Assembly: GCA_020344375.1 (NCBI GenBank)
Contig: CP070823.1
Span: 1,363,569 to 1,405,920 of the forward strand
Reading direction: 5' to 3'
From: Gemmatimonadota bacterium
Lineage (GTDB): Bacteria > Gemmatimonadota > Gemmatimonadetes > Palauibacterales > KS3-K002
DNA: 42,352 nt
This document shows, one piece after another, positions 1-9,326 of this stretch. Position numbers and translations under genes: made by a program. The first letter of the stretch is position 1. Each line of letters begins with the position of its first letter. The notes beneath the pieces were generated by a model, which worked only from the letters and a program-made list of their open reading frames with translations, searched no databases and was not told the origin of the DNA.

Positions 1-1496
1 GCGTACGGCGTACCCAGATCGATGGCGCGTGGCGCATGCCAGTCGTAGGGGTTGCCGGCGGTCTCGATGTGGAGGGTGCCGAGGCCAAGCCGACGCTGGA
101 AGGGCGACTGTCGGAGATGTAGCGCCTGGACCCTGCGGATGGGCACGATGTAGGTTCGTCTGTTCCACAGGCCCTCACGCACCAGTATATACTCCCCGGC
201 ACGCGCGTGGCCCAGGTGCCGGTAATGCGCGGCGGCGAGAAACCACGCTGGAACCAGTGCAATCAGCAGCACGAGAGCCAGTTGACCCTGCCAGACCGCC
301 AGCAGCCCGCTAGCCAGGATGACCGCTAACGCCCTGCGGATGAACAGTCGGCGCTGAGCCCGTGGATGCGACGGGCGCCAGTCCACGCTCTCCCAGTGGA
401 AACTGGGATAGACGGCGGTCAGGTAGCTCGGGATCTCTCGCGCCTGAGTGATCGGGGTAAGCGTCTCCATCCGCTCTTCGGATTTCATCTGCGGCCCATA
501 TCCGGCAGTCTGTACGCGCAGCGAGGCCAGCCCCAACCAGCGGCGCAGGATCGACTCCTCGATCTGAACGTTCTGCACGCGGCTGCGGCGGAAACCCTTC
601 TCGCGGCGCGTGAACAGGCCGTAACTGACCTGCAGCTGGCCGCCGCTCTGCCTCAGAGTGAAGTCGAAGTAGCGGATGACGCTGAGCACGACCGAGATCG
701 CCCAGCCGGCCAGGGCGAAGAACAGCATCAACACGATTAGTCCCGTCAGAAAGGCCCGGAGATCATGCTGTGCCGCCTGGACAAGGCTGTTCACGGCGGT
801 GCCCGGTTCGACCAGCTCAGGCGGCAGAAGGCGTTGCAGGAGCCAGTCCGTGGGTACGAAGTCGAACAGGTAGTCGCCGCCGAGCAAGAGTCCCACCAAC
901 AGGCCGGCACGGTTGGCGGTGGCGCCTGCGATCATCAGGTCGAGGGGCGTGACGCGGCGCATAAGCGTCTCGTGCTCGAGAGGTTGCACGATGGGCGCCG
1001 CCGCTAGCTCACCAGCCGGTCGGGTGACGGTCTCCGCCACCGCGGCTGGCGCCTGGGGTCTAGCTCGAGCTACCAGCGCCGCTCTCAGGTGAATACCCTC
1101 GGCCCGGCTCACGACGTGCAGAGTGGCCTCCGTCCCGCGGCCGCCGGCGGTCTCGATTCGCGCGGTCGTGACGCCCAGCATCTGCTGCAGGACGCCTGCA
1201 CGCAGGTCAACGTTCTGGATGCGTGAGCGCGGAATGACGCGTCGCTGACGGAAGAGGACGCCATGTGTGATGATCAGGCTCTCTTCGGTCAGCCGATAGC
1301 GAAAGCGCAGGTAGGCGAGGGTGATCCAGGCCGCGATCGCGAGTCCGGCGGCCAGCAGAACAACGAGCACCGCACCGACGCCCGTCGACGCGGCGATGGC
1401 GCCGAAGGCGAAGGCGTAGAGAAGTTGTACCGAGCGCAGGAACGGTGTGGCAGGATGCAGCCGCTGCCAGCCTTCCCCGCCCTCAGGTACGTTCAT
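1..1496 (-). CDS. ydbT: YdbT-like triple PH-domain membrane protein (partial, runs off left edge)
   Basis: The minus-strand frame is open from an ATG at 1496 to the window edge, so the C-terminus is missing. The protein starts MNVPEGGEGWQRLHP and carries three copies of the bacterial PH (bPH2) signature: IPRSRIQNVDLR near residue 90, RRSRVQNVQIEESILRRWLG near 260 and VPIRRVQALHLRQSPFQRRL near 450. Each ends in an (I/V)(E/Q)TAG strand. Hydrophobic segments between the domains (about residues 20-60, 240-265 and 370-390) predict a multi-pass membrane protein. The family usually accompanies YdbS, as it does here: the two genes overlap by 14 bases. The biochemical role of the family is poorly known; membrane or envelope maintenance has been proposed. 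The assignment to the family is firm; function is not. Confidence 0.88.
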   Translation of the reverse strand, partial: MNVPEGGEGWQRLHPATPFLRSVQLLYAFAFGAIAASTGVGAVLVVLLAAGLAIAAWITLAYLRFRYRLTEESLIITHGVLFRQRRVIPRSRIQNVDLRAGVLQQMLGVTTARIETAGGRGTEATLHVVSRAEGIHLRAALVARARPQAPAAVAETVTRPAGELAAAPIVQPLEHETLMRRVTPLDLMIAGATANRAGLLVGLLLGGDYLFDFVPTDWLLQRLLPPELVEPGTAVNSLVQAAQHDLRAFLTGLIVLMLFFALAGWAISVVLSVIRYFDFTLRQSGGQLQVSYGLFTRREKGFRRSRVQNVQIEESILRRWLGLASLRVQTAGYGPQMKSEERMETLTPITQAREIPSYLTAVYPSFHWESVDWRPSHPRAQRRLFIRRALAVILASGLLAVWQGQLALVLLIALVPAWFLAAAHYRHLGHARAGEYILVREGLWNRRTYIVPIRRVQALHLRQSPFQRRLGLGTLHIETAGNPYDWHAPRAIDLGTPY

Positions 1497-1956
1497 CCAA
1501 CTCTTCGAGTCGGGCAAGCTCATCGCGTAGGCGTTCGGCGTCCTCGGCGGCGAGACCGGGGATCTCAGCGTCGGCGCCGCGAGTACCGGCGGTGTAGATG
1601 ATCAGTGAGCTGAGGCCGAGCCAGCGCTGTAGCGGGGAGGAACGCGTGTCTACATGCTGGACACGGACCCTGGGGATGAGCGAGCGCGAGCGCCAGACGA
1701 CGCCCTTCTGAATCAGCACGCGGTCGGGTTCGATCTGCCAGCGCCAGTATCGATAGCGCAGGGTGGGCCAGACGATCGCTAATGACAGGGTCGAGGCAGC
1801 GATCAATCCGGTGAGGAGCCCTGGCGTTAGGAGCACGGCACCCTCCGGGTTGAGGGCCACTGCCTCAAAAGCGCCGACCAGCGCGGTCAGCACGAGGGCG
1901 GCGAGGACTCCTCCGAGCCGCCAGGCGATCGTGACGCGTGGATGGAGTCGGTTCAA
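1483..1956 (-). CDS. ydbS: YdbS-like single PH-domain membrane protein
   Basis: A 157-residue protein with two adjacent hydrophobic helices (about residues 14-32 and 40-62), followed by one bPH2 domain whose core reads LIPRVRVQHVDTRSSPLQRW and ends in an IYTAGTRG strand. This size and layout match YdbS, the small partner of YdbT. The stop codon lies inside the ydbT start region (14-base overlap), so the two are translated together. The start codon is 10 bases after the stop of the lipoprotein gene upstream, making it part of the operon that begins with the barrel protein at 5013. The precise biochemical role is unknown. Confidence 0.85.
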   Translation of the reverse strand: MNRLHPRVTIAWRLGGVLAALVLTALVGAFEAVALNPEGAVLLTPGLLTGLIAASTLSLAIVWPTLRYRYWRWQIEPDRVLIQKGVVWRSRSLIPRVRVQHVDTRSSPLQRWLGLSSLIIYTAGTRGADAEIPGLAAEDAERLRDELARLEELDERT

Positions 1957-1966
1957 CTGTCCGGAC

Positions 1967-3697
1967 TCAGTAGGCGCGCCCGACGATCCGGTAACCCGCT
2001 TCCTCGACCGGCAGGAGGTAGATGCGTACCGAGCGCGGTCGCGGCGCGTCGTCTGCCGCGATCGCTCTAAGCTCGAGCATGGCCAGCTGTTTCGCTATTG
2101 CCTGGCTACGCAACTCCTGCCAGAACGCGGCGTCGCTCGGGGGTCCGGGAAGCTCCAGCTGACCCTCCCCGCCAGCGGAGATCCGCGGCTCTCTCACGTG
2201 CTCGGTACGGATGCGAGCTGCCGGGAAGTCGAAGCGCATCTCGTAGCGGCGTCCGTCAGCAGGCACAACGCCCTCGGACACCGCCAGGTCTCGGAAGCCG
2301 AGGATAGGAGCCTGGGCGGATCCTTCTATGCTCAGCTCTTCAAGGGGCGTTACCCTGAGGTACCAGTAGGCGACGGTGAGATCTCGGCGAGCGATGATCG
2401 CGCGGGTCAGCGCGTCTGCCGCCCCCGGATCACTCAGCTGGCCTGCTGCGACAGCGGCCCGAATTTGCTCCTCGTCGAAGCTGGCCACCAGCTTGGCGCC
2501 CCAGTACCCGTCCCGCACAGTATGGTTCTGAAAGGCGGGGTTAGGGTAGTTGTTCTTCCAGTTCCCAGGATCGAAGAGGTCCGCTGAATAGAAACCGACC
2601 GCAGGGTGGGTCGGCGGCTGGCGATACCGCTCCCAGCTCTTGCTATAGAACCCGGCAGTGACCCAGCGGGCGCCGATCGCAGCGAGATCAACGTCGTGCT
2701 CGACGCCATCACGCGGTGCGTTGGGTCGGAGGGCCGCGCTGCCCAGGCTGGAGCCGAAGTCGATCAAGTAGTGGACGACACGTTTCTGACCGCCCTCATC
2801 GACGAGGATATCCAGTGAGTTGTGCTGTTTGGTGTCGAGGTGGTTAAGCCATGCCGCCAAGACATACAGTCCTCTCAGTTCACGGCGATGCTCATGCGGG
2901 ATACTGTCAGCCGGGTCCTCGTCTCGCATGCCCTCATAGTCGAAGGGCCCGAGCGTCCCGGATAACAGCTTACAGGCTGCTGCTCGAACCTTACCGTCGG
3001 CACGTCTCGGGACGGGTCGCAATAGCTCTTGGACGAAATCGTCGCCGACCGGGCTCTCGCGCCCGAGCGGATCCTCGAAGGTCAAACCTTCCGCAGCTCG
3101 GACGTTGGATGGATCGATGTACGTGACGGCGCATTCCGGCACGAAGTAACCGCTGGCGTGCAACAGCCGGCTGGTGATCACCTCAGCGGAGGACGCCAGC
3201 TCAGCGTAGTCCGGCGGATCGAATTTGACCAGATAACCGACTCCTGCCGCGTCCTGGAGCATGAACCCTGGAGTCACGCCTTCCTTATTGGCCCTGAACA
3301 CGGTCCATGTCCCACTGGTGTCTGGCCCCGTGCCGTCACCCGGTCCGCGTGCGACCTCGTCGCGCGTCATCCGCCGCTTGCCGTTCCTGTGGGTGAACCA
3401 GCTGGAGTTCACCACATCGTCCTCGGCAGTCGGGTTGTACGCCTCGACCTTGCTGCCCAGCCAGCTGCGCAGGGCGCGCGGCGGAATGAAGACGTGACTC
3501 AACGGTCTGCGGACGCTGTATTCTAGGAAGTCCACGATCACGTTCGGGTCGCGCTCGACCGGAGCCTCGCTCAGCGCTGGCGCCTCCGGGGCCGGGCGGG
3601 GCGCCTGAGTGACCGTGAGACGGTTCTTGGAGCATGCGCCCAGGAGCGCGCCGAGGGCGAGAGTAGCCAGGAAAATGTGCACTTTACACATCATCAT
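1967..3697 (-). CDS. Exported lipoprotein with HipA/PI4K-like (protein-kinase-like) fold signatures
   Basis: A 576-residue protein with a lipoprotein signal (lipobox LGAC, Cys22). I do not recognise a named family, but residues about 150-320 carry the hallmarks of an atypical kinase fold. K158 lies in a YLVKF strand, E172 in a following helix (ASSAEVITSRLL), D288 and N293 form a D-x4-N catalytic-loop pattern (WLNHLDTKQHN), and D313 starts a DFG in HYLIDFGSS. HipA and lipid-kinase-like families share this K/E/D-x4-N/D order. The lipobox places the domain outside the cytoplasm, which is unusual for an ATP-dependent enzyme. The C-terminal third (from about residue 440) matches nothing I know. 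The gene overlaps the barrel gene upstream by 4 bases (ATGA), so the two are translationally coupled. Lipoprotein status is well supported; kinase activity is inference. Confidence 0.7.
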   Translation of the reverse strand: MMMCKVHIFLATLALGALLGACSKNRLTVTQAPRPAPEAPALSEAPVERDPNVIVDFLEYSVRRPLSHVFIPPRALRSWLGSKVEAYNPTAEDDVVNSSWFTHRNGKRRMTRDEVARGPGDGTGPDTSGTWTVFRANKEGVTPGFMLQDAAGVGYLVKFDPPDYAELASSAEVITSRLLHASGYFVPECAVTYIDPSNVRAAEGLTFEDPLGRESPVGDDFVQELLRPVPRRADGKVRAAACKLLSGTLGPFDYEGMRDEDPADSIPHEHRRELRGLYVLAAWLNHLDTKQHNSLDILVDEGGQKRVVHYLIDFGSSLGSAALRPNAPRDGVEHDVDLAAIGARWVTAGFYSKSWERYRQPPTHPAVGFYSADLFDPGNWKNNYPNPAFQNHTVRDGYWGAKLVASFDEEQIRAAVAAGQLSDPGAADALTRAIIARRDLTVAYWYLRVTPLEELSIEGSAQAPILGFRDLAVSEGVVPADGRRYEMRFDFPAARIRTEHVREPRISAGGEGQLELPGPPSDAAFWQELRSQAIAKQLAMLELRAIAADDAPRPRSVRIYLLPVEEAGYRIVGRAY

Positions 3698-5013
3698 TGC
3701 CCCATTGCGAAGCCAAGGTTGACCCGGAAGCCTTCATCGCCGCCCGCCAGTTCGATACGGCCGCCTCCGTACGCGCCGGCGAGCGCGCTCAGGGCGATGC
3801 CGTAGCTCGGCTTCAAGTGCTTGAACGCGAAGTCATCTATTAGGTCCCAGGCGACCATACCGCCGTCTAGGAAGACGGAAGCGATCAATGCCATGCCTTC
3901 GTCGGAGAGGGCCCACAAGCGGTAGAAATACTCGGAGCGGCCGAGAATCAGGTCGCGATCGCGGAACCGGCTCGTGAGATAGGCCGGTGCCGTTGAGGAG
4001 CCGCCGAGCGCTGGCAACCGATAGAAGGGGAGTTCGCCATCGCCGCTGGCGCGGACGCTCCTGAACAGGACACCGAGGGCCAGGCTGCGGCGGTCGTAGT
4101 CGAAAGGCAGATCGACGCCCGCGCTGGCCTCAAGCTCTGTGAAATCGGCGGCCCCGGTGCTGCGGCTGTCGTTCCAGCGGAAACCGACGCGCAGCCACCG
4201 CCCCGCGCCCAGTAGGGGTCGGTCGTAGCCACTTCGCCATTCGCCTGCGACGCCGATCCCCAAGTAGCGATCCTCGTCACCGAAACGCGAGACCGCGGCG
4301 GGGTCGAAGATGGAATCGAGGTCGGGAAGCCGAGGGTTGTTTCCAGGCCCGCTCTCGACGGTTGACCAATCGAGGCCGACTCTGATGGCGATGGTTCGAA
4401 TGGGCGCCAGGCCGAGCTCGACACCCACGGCCTGGCGGTCCAGTTCGAAGTCCGACTTATCCTGCTCGCGGCTCTCTTTCCCGATTCCGAAGAACTCGTC
4501 GCGGTCGCGGTGGATGATCGAGCCGAAGGCGTGAATCCCGAAGCGGCGCGGGTCACCCGGTACGAACTCCTCCATTCCGTAGCCGATCCGGGCCACGACA
4601 CCCCAGTACTGCTTGTAGGTCACATCTCCGCGGACATAGCCCCATACCAGGCGGTCATCGTCCGGTACGCCTAGCAGCAGGGCGGCGCCAAATCCCGACC
4701 CGGAGCCCAGGCTTCCGGCCCCGGGATACAGGTAGTTGGCGTTGAGCCGCTGGTTGTAGTAGGTGACCCACTCGATGAGATGGATGTCGTCCGCGGCGCC
4801 TGCCGCCCGCCCGAGCCCAAGCGCCAGCAGGTAGAGCGGTGCCGTGGCGATCTTGAACGGGAATTCCGCGACATCCCAGGCATCGACGCCAGGAGCCCCG
4901 CGCTCGACCACGAAGATGGAGTCTGACGGGGTGTCCTGAGCCACACCAAGGCCGGGCCAACTGATAGTCAGTATGGCGATGAGTACTGGGATTTGTGCTG
5001 TTACCCGCCGCAT
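3694..5013 (-). CDS. Outer-membrane beta-barrel protein (BamA/surface-antigen-like)
   Basis: A 439-residue protein with a cleavable signal peptide (MRRVTAQIPVLIAILTISW, then GVAQ). The rest is a run of alternating amphipathic strands with many Gly/aromatic turns, for example RVGFRWNDS, ASAGVDLPFDYDRR and SYGIALSALAGAYGGGRIELAG. That pattern is typical of the 'surface antigen' barrel class related to Omp85 proteins. No POTRA domains are evident, so it is a bare barrel rather than a BamA orthologue. It is the first gene of an operon (barrel, kinase-like lipoprotein, ydbS, ydbT) with overlapping junctions. A TATAAT element about 115 bases upstream of its start gives a plausible promoter. The barrel assignment is confident; substrate or partner is unknown. 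Confidence 0.75.
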   Translation of the reverse strand: MRRVTAQIPVLIAILTISWPGLGVAQDTPSDSIFVVERGAPGVDAWDVAEFPFKIATAPLYLLALGLGRAAGAADDIHLIEWVTYYNQRLNANYLYPGAGSLGSGSGFGAALLLGVPDDDRLVWGYVRGDVTYKQYWGVVARIGYGMEEFVPGDPRRFGIHAFGSIIHRDRDEFFGIGKESREQDKSDFELDRQAVGVELGLAPIRTIAIRVGLDWSTVESGPGNNPRLPDLDSIFDPAAVSRFGDEDRYLGIGVAGEWRSGYDRPLLGAGRWLRVGFRWNDSRSTGAADFTELEASAGVDLPFDYDRRSLALGVLFRSVRASGDGELPFYRLPALGGSSTAPAYLTSRFRDRDLILGRSEYFYRLWALSDEGMALIASVFLDGGMVAWDLIDDFAFKHLKPSYGIALSALAGAYGGGRIELAGGDEGFRVNLGFAMGQ

Positions 5014-5125
5014 GAGACGAGCTCCTTCGGTGAGGCCAACGAACAGCTGATGCCTACATGATTAGCCTGGCGACCTCACTCGGTCGCTTTCGCTGCGTGG
5101 GACTGAGCTGAAGAGACTGAACAGC

Positions 5126-5131
5126 ATTATA
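5126..5131 (-). promoter_or_regulatory. Candidate -10 element (TATAAT) for the barrel/kinase-lipoprotein/ydbST operon
   Basis: On the minus strand an exact TATAAT lies 113 bases upstream of the barrel start codon at 5013 and just after the stop of the binding-protein gene. The 17-base-spaced -35 position reads TGTTCT, a weak match. In such G+C-rich DNA a perfect -10 hexamer in the only gap is suggestive, but not proof. Confidence 0.45.
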
Positions 5132-5132
5132 C

Positions 5133-6122
5133 TCACCGCTTGAGCTGCAGAACAGTCCGTCCTTTTGCTGCAAGTCGCGGTCGAGGCTCGTGAGGCCCGT
5201 TCGATCCCGAGGCGGCATCCGTGTCCGGGACATGGACGGCTAGCCACTCCCTCACCACGAGCGGCATGTCACGATGCTCGACGTCCACGAGGCGGTTCAG
5301 CCTCCGCATCTCCTCGTCGGAGATCCGACCGCCGAGTTCGTCCAGCGCGGCACCCACCTCGGGGTGGCGATCGAGCACGTCGGCCCGGATGATGGGCGCG
5401 GCCTCGTAAGGCGGGAAATAGGACTTGTCGTCTTCCAACTGCTTCAGATCGAGCGCCTCGATCAACCCATCGGTGGAATTACCAGCGATGAGATCCACCT
5501 GGCCATCAGCCAGGGCGCGATAGGTGAGGCCGAGGTCCATGGTCCGGGGAGGTGCGGCGAAGGCCAAACCGTAGGTGGCCGCCAGGCCGGGTAACCCGTC
5601 CTGACGCTCCGCGAACTCGTAGCCAAAGCCGGCGCGCCAGTTCGGCGTGTAGGCAGCGACCTGAGAGATGGTCTCGAGTCCGAAGCGCCGCGCGTCGCTG
5701 CCACGGATGAGGATGGCGAAGGTGTTGTTAAAGCCGAGGGGTCTGCCCCAGACCAGCTCGAAGCGGTCGGCGTACTCCTGTTTGACGGCCCGGTAGACGG
5801 CCTCGCGGTCGTGCAGGGGTGGCTGCCCCAGGATCGCGGTGAGGGCCGTGCCCGTATACTCCACGTAGATATCGACCTCGCCCGACAGGATGGCGCGGTG
5901 GCAGACAAAGGTGCCGCCGAGGTAGAAGCGCCGGTCGACCGTCAGTCCGGTACGCCGCTCAAGCTGCTGGGCCACGAGCTCGGCCAAGATGGTCTGCTCG
6001 GTGAAGTTCTTGGAGGCGACGACGATGTGCTCCTCGCCCCAGGCGCCGCAGCCCAGGCTCGAAAGAGTCACAACGGTTGTGATTCCTGTTGCGAGGAGCG
6101 TTGCCCGCACTGCGGATCTCAT
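5133..6122 (-). CDS. opuBC: Glycine betaine/choline-type ABC transporter substrate-binding lipoprotein
   Basis: A 329-residue OpuAC/OsmX-family binding protein. A lipobox (SLGC, Cys25) is followed by the family opening IVVASKNFTEQ and by the hallmark VDIYVEYTGTAL; GNSTDGLIEALDL closes the ligand cleft later on. It should capture a quaternary ammonium osmolyte (glycine betaine, choline or carnitine) outside the inner membrane and deliver it to the permease. The ligand cannot be told from sequence alone. It overlaps the permease gene by 4 bases (ATGA). After residue about 300 there is a basic, proline-rich tail that most family members lack. Confidence 0.9.
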   Translation of the reverse strand: MRSAVRATLLATGITTVVTLSSLGCGAWGEEHIVVASKNFTEQTILAELVAQQLERRTGLTVDRRFYLGGTFVCHRAILSGEVDIYVEYTGTALTAILGQPPLHDREAVYRAVKQEYADRFELVWGRPLGFNNTFAILIRGSDARRFGLETISQVAAYTPNWRAGFGYEFAERQDGLPGLAATYGLAFAAPPRTMDLGLTYRALADGQVDLIAGNSTDGLIEALDLKQLEDDKSYFPPYEAAPIIRADVLDRHPEVGAALDELGGRISDEEMRRLNRLVDVEHRDMPLVVREWLAVHVPDTDAASGSNGPHEPRPRLAAKGRTVLQLKR

Positions 6123-6781
6123 ACCGCCCGCACCTCGGCCAGCTGGCCGCGCGCGGGCGCGAAATGGCGCTCGAGGCGGCCGAGCAGGAAGTCGGCGACC
6201 AGGGCGATGAGGGCCGCGGGCACGGCACCGGCCAGGATCAGCGTGTTGTTCACCATGGCGACGCCCCGGAAGATGAAGACCCCGAGGCCGCCCGCACCGA
6301 TGGCGGCGGCGATAGTGGCGACGCCGACGCCGATCACGGTCGCGACGCGTATCCCGGCCAGGATGACTCCGAAGGCGAGAGGGATCTCCACCATGAGCAG
6401 GAGCTGTCGGTCTGTCATTCCCATGCCGCGTCCCGCCTCGCGCACGGCCGGATCGATTCCCTGAATACCCGCGTAGGTGTTGCGGATGATCGGTAACAGC
6501 GCATAGAGCACCAGGGCGACGATCGCGGTGCGGGCACCGACGCCGCCGATGAACGGGAGTGGGATGAGGAACCCGAAGAGCGCCAGGCTGGGAATCGTCT
6601 GGAAGATGTTGGCGAGCCCCAGCACGGATGGGCTAAAGCGTGGCCTGCGGGTCAAAAGGATCCCCAGCGGCACGCCGACGACGAGCGCGATTCCGGTCGA
6701 GACGCCTACCAGGAAGAGGTGCTGCAGCGTCAGCGTGATGAACTCCGCGCGGTTCCTTAAGAGGAAGTCGATGAGGTTCAT
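6119..6781 (-). CDS. opuBB: Glycine betaine/choline-type ABC transporter permease
   Basis: A 220-residue integral membrane protein of the OpuAB/OpuBB type with about five or six hydrophobic helices. The cytoplasmic EAA loop that docks on the ATPase is visible as EAGRGMGMTDRQLLLMVEIP (about residues 115-135). The length is normal for a single-domain permease. Only one permease gene is present, so the channel is presumably a homodimer, unlike systems with two permeases. The start ATG is at 6781 with a weak ribosome site. It lies 90 bases downstream of the ATPase gene, a gap that contains a strong hairpin, and it overlaps the binding-protein gene. Confidence 0.9.
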   Translation of the reverse strand: MNLIDFLLRNRAEFITLTLQHLFLVGVSTGIALVVGVPLGILLTRRPRFSPSVLGLANIFQTIPSLALFGFLIPLPFIGGVGARTAIVALVLYALLPIIRNTYAGIQGIDPAVREAGRGMGMTDRQLLLMVEIPLAFGVILAGIRVATVIGVGVATIAAAIGAGGLGVFIFRGVAMVNNTLILAGAVPAALIALVADFLLGRLERHFAPARGQLAEVRAV

Positions 6782-6812
6782 TCGGGCTCTACTGTAGATG
6801 GTGCGTTGTCAG

Positions 6813-6830
6813 GTTCGCCGGCTGGCGAAC
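6813..6830 (-). other. Intercistronic hairpin between ATPase and permease genes
   Basis: A perfect 7-base stem (GTTCGCC/GGCGAAC) with a 4-base loop lies in the 90-base gap between the ATPase stop and the permease start. It has no following T run on the minus strand, so it is more likely a processing or partial-attenuation structure than a full terminator. This is inferred from base pairing only. Confidence 0.4.
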
Positions 6831-6871
6831 GGCGAGCGGCGCGCACGGGCGAAGACTGCCGATTTCGTTCG

Positions 6872-7639
6872 TCATTCATTCGCAGTTGTGTCGGTGTCCT
6901 TCAGCGCTTTAACGAAAGCGCGGGCCTCCGGATTCTCGGAGCGGAGGAACTCGTGCGGTGAGCCCAGAAATGCCAGCGCGCCCTCTCGGAACAAGGCGAT
7001 GCGCGATGCGAGGAACAGCCCCTCACGGACGTCGTGCGTCACGAAGACCAGCGTCTTGTGCAGACGAGCCTGGAGTGCTTTGAGTTCGCGCTGCAGCTCG
7101 AGGCGTGTCAGGGGATCGAGGGCACCAAAGGGCTCATCGAGCAAGAGTAGCGGAGGGTCGGCGGCGAGGGCGCGGGCGACGCCGACGCGCTGCTTCTGAC
7201 CGCCGGAGAGTTGCGAAGGGTAGCGGTCGGCGAAGCTGGCAGGATCGAGGGCGACCAGATCGAGCAGCTCGCGGACTCGTTCGCGCTTTCGCCGCTCGTC
7301 CCAACCTTCGAGGGTGGGCACAACGGCCACGTTCCGGGCAACCGTGAAGTGTGGGAAGAGACCGATGTCCTGGATGACGTAGCCGATGCGGCGGCGCAGC
7401 TTTGTGGGATCCCATTCCACCGTCGATCTGCCTTCGACAGTCACCTTGCCCTCACTGGGAAGGAGCAGTCGATTGATCAGCTTCAGGGTGGTTGTCTTGC
7501 CGGAGCCGCTCCGCCCCAGGAGGACAAGGATTTCGCCGGGCCGCACGTCGAAACTGATACCTGAGACGATGGGTCGGCCGTCGGCGAGTCGGAGGGCCAC
7601 GTCGAGGAACTGAACGACCGGTGCGCGAGTTTCGTTCAC
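6872..7639 (-). CDS. opuBA: Glycine betaine/choline-type ABC transporter ATP-binding protein
   Basis: A 255-residue ABC ATPase. Walker A is GRSGSGKTT (residues 42-50), the signature is LSGGQKQRVGVARAL, Walker B is LLLLDEPFGALD, and the H-loop is FVTHD. The family lead FDVRPGEILVLLG matches OpuA/ProV-type importers. It ends soon after the nucleotide-binding domain, lacking the tandem CBS domains by which longer OpuA-type ATPases sense ionic strength. Osmotic gating, if any, must therefore come from elsewhere. It is the first gene of the three-gene importer operon and is transcribed away from the flavoprotein gene at 7956. Confidence 0.9.
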   Translation of the reverse strand: MNETRAPVVQFLDVALRLADGRPIVSGISFDVRPGEILVLLGRSGSGKTTTLKLINRLLLPSEGKVTVEGRSTVEWDPTKLRRRIGYVIQDIGLFPHFTVARNVAVVPTLEGWDERRKRERVRELLDLVALDPASFADRYPSQLSGGQKQRVGVARALAADPPLLLLDEPFGALDPLTRLELQRELKALQARLHKTLVFVTHDVREGLFLASRIALFREGALAFLGSPHEFLRSENPEARAFVKALKDTDTTANE

Positions 7640-7955
7640 GACTCCAGGCTCCTGGCTGGCGCGGCCGGCTCTCCAGAGGCTCTCTCGTTCCGCTTCTGAT
7701 CTCCCTCGAGCTATGGGAGGCTGGGTGCCACGCCATTCAAGCTAGCCTCAGTAGGCGCCGCTGGCCAAGCCGTGGGAAGCGGGGTTGATCGGGGTGGGGT
7801 GATGACAGATACTCCAGTCCATCTTGAGCCGGCTCTGCCGATCGCACGTAACCACTCGGGAGAACACAGGGTTTGAGCAGGTCCGAATGGCGAGGAAGCG
7901 GGATCGAACCCCGCGTGAGGGACACTCTCCAGGCAAGCGATAGACGGAGGATTGG
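7640..7955. other. Divergent intergenic region with a T-arm-like hairpin
   Basis: These 316 bases separate the importer operon (minus) from the flavoprotein gene (plus) and must hold both promoters, but I find no convincing hexamer pair. GGAGG at 7946-7950 is the ribosome site for the gene at 7956. At 7898-7914 a 5-base stem (GCGGG/CCCGC) encloses a 7-base loop; read on the minus strand it contains GGTTCGATCCC, like a tRNA T-arm, and is followed by CCTCGCCA. No matching acceptor, D-arm or anticodon arm is present, so it is not a tRNA gene. Confidence 0.4.
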
Positions 7956-9326
7956 ATGAAGGTCGACGTGATCGTGATCGGTAGCGGTCAGGCGGGTGTC
8001 CCGCTGGCGGCTCGCCTCGCCGGGTCGGGAAGAGACGTGATCATCGTCGAGGCTAACCACCTGGGTGGGTCCTGTGTGAACGTCGGCTGCACGCCCACGA
8101 AGACGATGGTGGCGAGCGCCCGGGCGGCGCATGTGGCGCGGGGAGCGGCCCGACTCGGTGTGCGGACTGGCGAAGTGAAGGTTGACCTTGCCGCCGTCGT
8201 CGATCGCAAGGACGCGATCGTGCAGCAGTTTCGCAATGGTGTACGTCGGCGTCTGGAGCGCGCCGGCGAGCGACTCAAGCTGATCGAGGGCCGGGCACGG
8301 TTCGTGGGTGAGCGCGAGATCGAGGTCAACGGCGAGCGCCATGCGGCCGAGACGGTAATCGTGAACGTGGGAGCGCGCCCGAGAAGACCGCCGGTCAGAG
8401 GCCTCGACCGGGTCGATTGGCTCAGTAGTTCCAGTATAATGGAACTGCGCCAGCGTCCCGATCACCTGGTGATCATGGGTGGCGGCTACATCGCCTGTGA
8501 GTTCGGCCAGATGTTCCGCCGCTTCGGCTCGCAGGTGACGATCATGCAGAAAGGTGAGCACCTGCTGGCGCGGGAGGACACAGAGATCTCCCAGGCCATT
8601 GAGGAAGCGTTTCGCTCCGAGGGGATCGAGGTGGTTCTGAACGCTGAGGTCGTGGAGGTCGAGAGGCGCGGCGGAGAGGTGGCCGTGCGTTGCGCCGGCG
8701 GCCAGGAGACCCAGGGCTCCCACCTCCTGGTTGCTGTGGGGCGCATCCCCAACACGGACGAGCTGGGCTGCGCGACCGCCGGGATCGAGCTCGACGATCA
8801 GGGCTTCATCAAGGTGGACGACAGCTACCGCAGCAGCGCGGCGGGCGTCTACGCGGTCGGCGACTGCAACGGCGGACCACAGTTCACGCACACGTCCTGG
8901 GACGACCATCGCATCCTTTACGACATCCTGATGGGCCGCCGCGAGGGCGGCCGTGACGGTCGCATCGTACCGAGCACGGTGTTCACGGATCCGCAGGCAG
9001 CGCGTGCTGGGCTATCGGAGCGTGAGGCGAAGGCTCTGGGCATCGAGTGTGAGGTGGCGACGATGCCTTTCGGATACATCGCAAGGGCGATTGAGATGGA
9101 TGAGACGGTGGGGGTCATGAAAGTGCTGATCGATCCGAAGACGGAAAGGATCCTCGGCGCCGCCCTTGTCGGCCATGAGGCAGGCGAGCTACTCCATTCG
9201 TTCCTCATGCTGATGCAGGCGGGCGTGTCGGCCCGCGCCATGGTGGACGCACAGATGGTGCACCCGGCGCTGGCCGAGGGTCTACAGGCCCTGGTGATGA
9301 AGCTCGAGCGGTTCGCGCTCAGGTAG
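7956..9326 (+). CDS. Mercuric-reductase-like FAD/NAD(P)-dependent disulfide oxidoreductase
   Basis: A 456-residue class I pyridine-nucleotide disulfide oxidoreductase. It has an N-terminal FAD motif (VIGSGQAGVPLA, residues 7-18), the redox-active C40-VNVG-C45 in a GGSCVNVGCTPTK context, a second dinucleotide site (MGGGYIACEFGQMF), the FAD-binding YAVGDCNGG, and a C-terminal dimer domain with H436/E441 in HPALAE. The pattern is closest to MerA-like reductases. It lacks an N-terminal heavy-metal-binding domain and the C-terminal Cys pair that MerA needs for Hg(II), and no merR/merT is nearby. Detoxification of mercury is therefore doubtful. It is probably a general dithiol/NAD(P)H oxidoreductase. 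Start: ATG at 7956 after GGAGG. Confidence 0.85.
   Translation: MKVDVIVIGSGQAGVPLAARLAGSGRDVIIVEANHLGGSCVNVGCTPTKTMVASARAAHVARGAARLGVRTGEVKVDLAAVVDRKDAIVQQFRNGVRRRLERAGERLKLIEGRARFVGEREIEVNGERHAAETVIVNVGARPRRPPVRGLDRVDWLSSSSIMELRQRPDHLVIMGGGYIACEFGQMFRRFGSQVTIMQKGEHLLAREDTEISQAIEEAFRSEGIEVVLNAEVVEVERRGGEVAVRCAGGQETQGSHLLVAVGRIPNTDELGCATAGIELDDQGFIKVDDSYRSSAAGVYAVGDCNGGPQFTHTSWDDHRILYDILMGRREGGRDGRIVPSTVFTDPQAARAGLSEREAKALGIECEVATMPFGYIARAIEMDETVGVMKVLIDPKTERILGAALVGHEAGELLHSFLMLMQAGVSARAMVDAQMVHPALAEGLQALVMKLERFALR

Follow-up and report, generated by a model that had tools for sequence, protein, structure and literature searches.

Exported lipoproteins with a predicted atypical-kinase fold, their Omp85 barrel partner, and their linkage to ATP/ADP translocases

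The absence of ATP is generally regarded as a limit on protein phosphorylation beyond the bacterial cytoplasm. The lumen of the endoplasmic reticulum, which has no ATP of its own, is supplied by the ATP/ADP exchanger AXER/SLC35B1 (PMC6113206, PMC12267056). FAM20C-type kinases of the secretory pathway resemble the protein described here in being exported and in having an atypical kinase fold (predicted in our case, with FAM20C as the best Foldseek match), and in both cases a compartment would be fed by an antiporter, in eukaryotes the endoplasmic reticulum, upstream of these kinases. However, our protein has no FAM20 sequence match, it is a lipoprotein of bacteria with an Omp85 barrel as its partner, and its putative carrier belongs to the NTT (TLC) family. 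HipA and CtkA share with it the order and spacing of K, D-x4-N, and D; CtkA is among its structural matches, and weak HipA_2 and HipA_C signals occur in the family. Unlike them, it falls below the Pfam cut-offs, is a lipoprotein, has no HipB, and carries an extra C-terminal β-sandwich. Fusions of the PlpD type join a patatin, POTRA domains, and a barrel, and thus also pair an enzyme with an Omp85 barrel, whereas the system described here consists of separate genes, has a predicted kinase rather than a patatin fold, and has no POTRA domain.

CotH, a bacterial kinase of the spore coat, is FAM20-like and has the D, N, D set (PMC12189002). The present family is likewise bacterial and has this set, but gave no match to PF08757. 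CotH is not known to have an Omp85 or NTT partner. NTT-HEAT and NTT-HEAT-cNBD proteins have been described in free-living bacteria of several of the phyla considered here, with their function given as unknown (Major et al. 2017, PMC5381601). The NTTs linked to our kinase family share exactly these architectures; the link to a kinase is described here and does not appear in the available part of that article. No report of exported bacterial HipA- or FAM20-like lipoprotein kinases, or of a kinase-NTT link, was found in the open-access literature.

The lipoprotein and its predicted fold

The window (the whole stretch of DNA analyzed, 42,352 nucleotides) comes from a Gemmatimonadota genome of 3.04 Mb assembled as one contig. 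The lipoprotein gene and its features, all on the minus strand, are as follows:

1967..3697 (−), exported lipoprotein with a predicted atypical-kinase fold, 576 amino acids, ATG start and TGA stop
3632..3634 (−), codon of the lipobox cysteine, Cys22, in LLGAC; of the 72 homologues ungapped at this column, 60 have Cys
2360..3307 (−), predicted kinase domain, residues 131 to 446, from AlphaFold2 secondary structure and Foldseek
3224..3226 (−), codon of K158, the predicted ATP-binding Lys, ending the third N-lobe strand (154 to 159 in the model); K in 83 of 84 homologues
3182..3184 (−), codon of E172 at the αC-helix position (helix 167 to 182 in the model), not conserved
2834..2836 (−), codon of D288, the predicted catalytic Asp; 84 of 84 homologues
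2819..2821 (−), codon of N293, a predicted metal ligand; 84 of 84 homologues
2759..2761 (−), codon of D313 of the DFG-like motif; 84 of 84 homologues
1970..2350 (−), predicted C-terminal FN3-like β-sandwich, residues 450 to 576 (the last 127), from AlphaFold2 and Foldseek; absent in L024

A sequence-only reading of this gene had proposed an exported lipoprotein with a lipobox at Cys22 and five atypical-kinase signature residues. The lipobox and export were upheld, and all five residues sit at the positions first noted: K158 in GYLVKFDP, E172 in SSAEV, D288TKQHN293, and D313FG. The two-lobed kinase fold it anticipated was recovered in an AlphaFold2 model built from an 84-row alignment (pLDDT 93.5, pTM 0.92). 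In the model, K158 closes the third N-lobe strand with E172 in the next helix, D288 to N293 lie in the loop after helix 277 to 284, and D313 follows the hairpin 294 to 311; as modeled, this arrangement is the layout of a kinase. A Foldseek search against the PDB placed FAM20C first (4kqb; E value, 3.3e−4), followed by CtkA (3akl; target TM-score, 0.52), Rio2 (4gyi), and PI4K-IIα (5eut), all of which are atypical kinases. Although the FAM20-type structures 4kqb and 4kqa were best (E values, 3e−4 to 9e−4), the E values were modest, their full-length TM-scores were low, and CtkA and Rio2 were close behind, so the fold class is clear and the nearest family is not.

Searches of the lipoprotein against Pfam, NCBIfam, and PDB sequences returned no match, including none to a FAM20 family in Pfam or PDB sequences. 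The leading recurrent Pfam signals among the family members, weak but specific, were HipA_2 (13 members) and HipA_C (11 members), with best E values of 0.004 and 0.03, below the curated cut-off. The HipA-type catalytic set (K, D-x4-N, and an Asp at the YD/DFG position) is present in the family, and the spacing of Asp and Asn, five residues apart, is that of HipA DAHGKN. The lipoprotein itself had no HipA match (PF07804 or PF20613) over the curated cut-off, genome-wide HipA scans did not contain it, and hhalign against Gemmatimonadota HipA gave a probability of 3% (E value, 0.015) over the N-lobe only. Its locus encodes no HipB-type antitoxin partner, the neighbors being an Omp85 barrel and bPH_2 proteins, and the protein has a lipobox. 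Membership in HipA was rejected on the Pfam cut-offs and the hhalign probability; identity with CotH (PF08757) was rejected since no profile match was obtained for the lipoprotein or other family members.

Relatives and the Omp85 barrel partner

When 84,980 species genomes were scanned with a profile, at least 315 relatives of the kinase emerged, distributed over approximately a dozen phyla; the 80 best were retrieved. Carriers include Gemmatimonadota, Zixibacteria, Calditrichota, KSB1, Latescibacterota, Poribacteria, Acidobacteriota, Aminicenantes, Nitrospirota, Balneolota, Eisenbacteria, and Krumholzibacteriota, among others, and most of the loci derive from metagenome bins. Among 100 genomes related to that of the window, 24 carry a homologue. 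The alignment comprised 84 rows, with homologues mostly 30 to 42% identical to the query; one kinase frame with an in-frame stop in the metagenome-assembled genome (MAG) as extracted (L050:7917-9713) was left out. The loci L033 and L035 are very similar, yet their MAGs are titled Calditrichaceae and Deltaproteobacteria, and one is probably misnamed.

Across this alignment, D288, N293, and D313 were invariant and K158 was missing only in L024; other invariant residues include R272, R275, G319, D396, W399, and R437. The conservation of the catalytic motifs is far beyond chance. As a signature, the proposed set of five residues shrinks to four, because the E172 column contained E in 55 homologues, G in 19, D in 6, and N in 4, so that the αC Glu is gone in 29 of 84, and E172 was dropped from the conserved signature. 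Such a loss in one third of members is unusual for an active kinase, yet it accompanies a complete K/D/N/D set. Several of the homologues without Cys22 begin with an apparent ordinary signal peptide. Together, the export signal and the residue conservation across relatives point to an exported protein whose active site is under selection, and the family is probably active as an enzyme. L024:1489-2502 is a distant, shorter member with Ile at the position of K158 and without the C-terminal β-sandwich; it may be a pseudokinase or a separate branch.

The neighbors of the lipoprotein gene in the window are:

3694..5013 (−), POTRA-less barrel of the Omp85 superfamily with an N-terminal helical region, from its model, Foldseek, and PF01103 in homologues
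1483..1956 (−), bPH_2 protein (YdbS-like), the next gene; linkage confined to the close clade
3..1523 (−), triple bPH_2 protein (YdbT-like), extending beyond the end of the window; linkage likewise confined to the close clade

The barrel open reading frame overlaps the start of the lipoprotein gene by 4 nucleotides (ATGA) on the same strand. Clustering placed a homologous barrel gene directly upstream of the kinase gene, in the same orientation, in 66 of 77 loci, with most exceptions being contig ends, and the PF01103 Omp85 domain was found in 57 of 62 barrel homologues. The window barrel is divergent, its own sequence matching only NF047779, and weakly; its model had 16 strands (pLDDT 86.5), and Foldseek matched it best to TamA and BamA (TamA 8us4; E value, 3e−10). 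No POTRA domain was present in this model, which has a helical N terminus (residues 45 to 92) instead. The barrel is a general partner of the kinase family. The family itself, made up of exported lipoproteins with a predicted kinase fold and an Omp85 partner dedicated to them, is real, widespread, and hitherto unnamed. Co-translation with both the barrel and YdbS/YdbT had been suggested from the sequence; the barrel adjoins the kinase nearly everywhere, but YdbS/YdbT were found only in three close relatives (L029, L030, and L032) and were rejected as an essential part of the system. The OpuAC-type ABC genes further upstream (5133-7639) were also rejected as partners, as they are not linked in relatives. 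Some loci carry more than one kinase gene: L082:4878-11025 reads barrel-kinase-barrel-kinase, and two kinases follow one barrel in L096:1644-5106, L104:7743-11055, and L106:6182-9407.

Translocases and a phosphatase at kinase loci

Clustering of neighbors revealed two further recurrent genes, encoding an exported calcineurin-like phosphoesterase and transporters of the TLC/NTT type. Candidate transporters were present at 36 loci, and 33 were confirmed as NTTs by Pfam; three detected with a home-made profile (L091, L070, and L071) were not confirmed and were excluded. Thus, a PF03219 NTT over the curated cut-off lies within 8 kb of the kinase in 33 of 80 loci. At a generous 0.02 per locus, the chance of 30 or more linked loci among 80 would be 4e−30. 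The remaining 47 loci had no confirmed NTT within 8 kb; some of these are short contigs, on which the absence of linked genes is uninformative. Some linked NTTs are fused to HEAT repeats and cyclic-nucleotide-binding domains, and the exported calcineurin-like phosphatase is also present in several of the NTT-linked loci. This genomic context, comprising the linkage to both NTT and phosphatase, is a new finding.

The linked NTT gene is mostly downstream of the kinase on the same strand; it is upstream on the same strand in L051, L053, L092, and L098 and convergent in L034, L084, L093, and L100. In L051, the order is NTT (4418-6691), barrel (6688-8007), and kinase (from 8007), and in L048 it is kinase, phosphatase, and NTT (2799-4166). 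Gene overlaps of a few bases in L051, L053, L047, and L048 indicate that these are operons. NTT-linked loci are spread over most major clades of the kinase tree, on which linkage is gained or lost at least 16 times, indicating that the association was kept or remade many times.

NTTs and the kinase also co-occur across genomes. An NTT was carried by 49 of 50 kinase-bearing genomes, the exception being G129, and by none of 14 control genomes. Among the 100 relatives, it was found in 23 of the 24 that have the kinase and in 39 of the 76 that lack it (Fisher p = 6e−5), a difference that is partly phylogenetic. An NTT does not imply the kinase, as the NTTs of kinase-lacking genomes have other neighbors. 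Neither an NTT nor a phosphatase lies beside the kinase at the window's own locus, and the NTT of this genome is encoded elsewhere:

L112:6352-8586, NTT-HEAT gene of the window's genome, 1.5 Mb from the kinase, following a histidine kinase gene (4811-6274)

L112:8757-10874, beside this NTT gene, was considered as a partner and discarded, as it has only a DUF481 barrel at its end. Two close relatives, bin464 and bin1194, carry the orthologous kinase and, within an NTT operon, another copy of the kinase gene (L051 and L053). In L142:5548-7197, L143:5609-7318, and L144:5459-7108, all from the same class, a gene of approximately 550 amino acids precedes an NTT-HEAT gene not linked to a kinase; apparently this is one recurring family.

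Proposed mechanism and its alternatives

We favor the reading that the lipoprotein is an active, ATP-dependent extracytoplasmic kinase, paired with the barrel and fed ATP by an NTT antiporter, with a probability of roughly 0.55. The enzyme, of an atypical FAM20/HipA/PI4K-like fold, would be a phosphoryl- or nucleotidyltransferase that acts, as a lipoprotein, in an extracytoplasmic location, either the periplasm or the outer membrane. NTT-type antiporters would bring ATP across the inner membrane in exchange for returned ADP, and the exported calcineurin-like lipoprotein phosphatase, encoded next door in many relatives, would reverse the reaction on an envelope substrate. The POTRA-less barrel may place the kinase at the outer membrane or present substrates there; alternatively, it may itself be the substrate. 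In the organism of the window, kinase and barrel would act together with an NTT-HEAT protein encoded elsewhere on the chromosome. The sequence-only reading had offered a donor other than ATP or a fold reused for binding as alternatives; both now rank behind the reading above, given an intact active site and the family's linkage to ATP/ADP translocases, which could supply extracytoplasmic ATP. This linkage also answers the objection that ATP is scarce outside the cytoplasm.

An active kinase could still be independent of the NTT, using another donor or ATP from lysis or other exporters, with the NTT linkage reflecting a shared nucleotide-salvage or regulatory operon. The NTTs that are often unlinked, the window's genome included, the 39 of 76 relatives with an NTT and no kinase, and G129, with a kinase and no NTT match, all agree with this; we nevertheless consider it unlikely given that linkage recurs in most tree clades with differing gene orders and overlapping operons and that co-occurrence reaches 49 of 50 genomes. 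Quite unlikely, in our estimate, is an exported, noncatalytic pseudokinase whose fold serves structure or sensing through a bound ligand (nucleotide, lipid, or protein), for example by acting as the barrel's plug or partner. The replacement of the αC Glu by Gly, Asp, or Asn in 29 of 84 homologues, the Ile of L024, and an extracytoplasmic location where ATP is normally scarce would suit such a protein, but it would not account for the retention of the phosphotransfer-specific K, D, N, and D in 83 to 84 of 84 homologues over approximately a dozen phyla, or for the linkage to ATP/ADP carriers. Very unlikely, finally, is the transfer of a different group in place of phosphate, such as AMP (the SelO case) or glutamate (the SidJ case), by an enzyme that still draws on extracytoplasmic ATP. 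A fold does not by itself determine the chemistry, and the departure of the αC Glu could be compatible with an altered nucleotide orientation; the linked exported phosphoesterases suit the removal of phosphate at least as well.

Returning to the NTT-fed kinase, the data suggest that some free-living bacteria export ATP to drive envelope phosphorylation. More tentatively, and at slightly less than even odds, approximately a dozen phyla may run an envelope phosphorylation module of lipoprotein kinase and Omp85 barrel, in many lineages with an exported phosphatase and a dedicated ATP-exporting NTT, as a bacterial counterpart of FAM20C and AXER. If true, the module would give NTTs a physiological role in free-living bacteria. 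The grouping of genes for an exported kinase, a phosphatase, and an ATP/ADP carrier makes both the question of extracytoplasmic ATP and that of the NTT role testable, and cultured species in which this could be done include Fodinibius sediminis and Nitrospira moscoviensis.

Two further genes recur near the kinase. One, a convergent NlpC/P60 gene whose product has SH3 domains, adjoins it in four loci from Gemmatimonadota (L051:9867-10688, L053:9678-10526, L074:2774-3601, and L091:9725-10546). In loci from Zixibacteria and Nitrospira (L038, L043, L081, L094, and L103), a gene for a PAP2-family phosphatase lies upstream of the barrel, approximately 1.5 kb upstream of the kinase.
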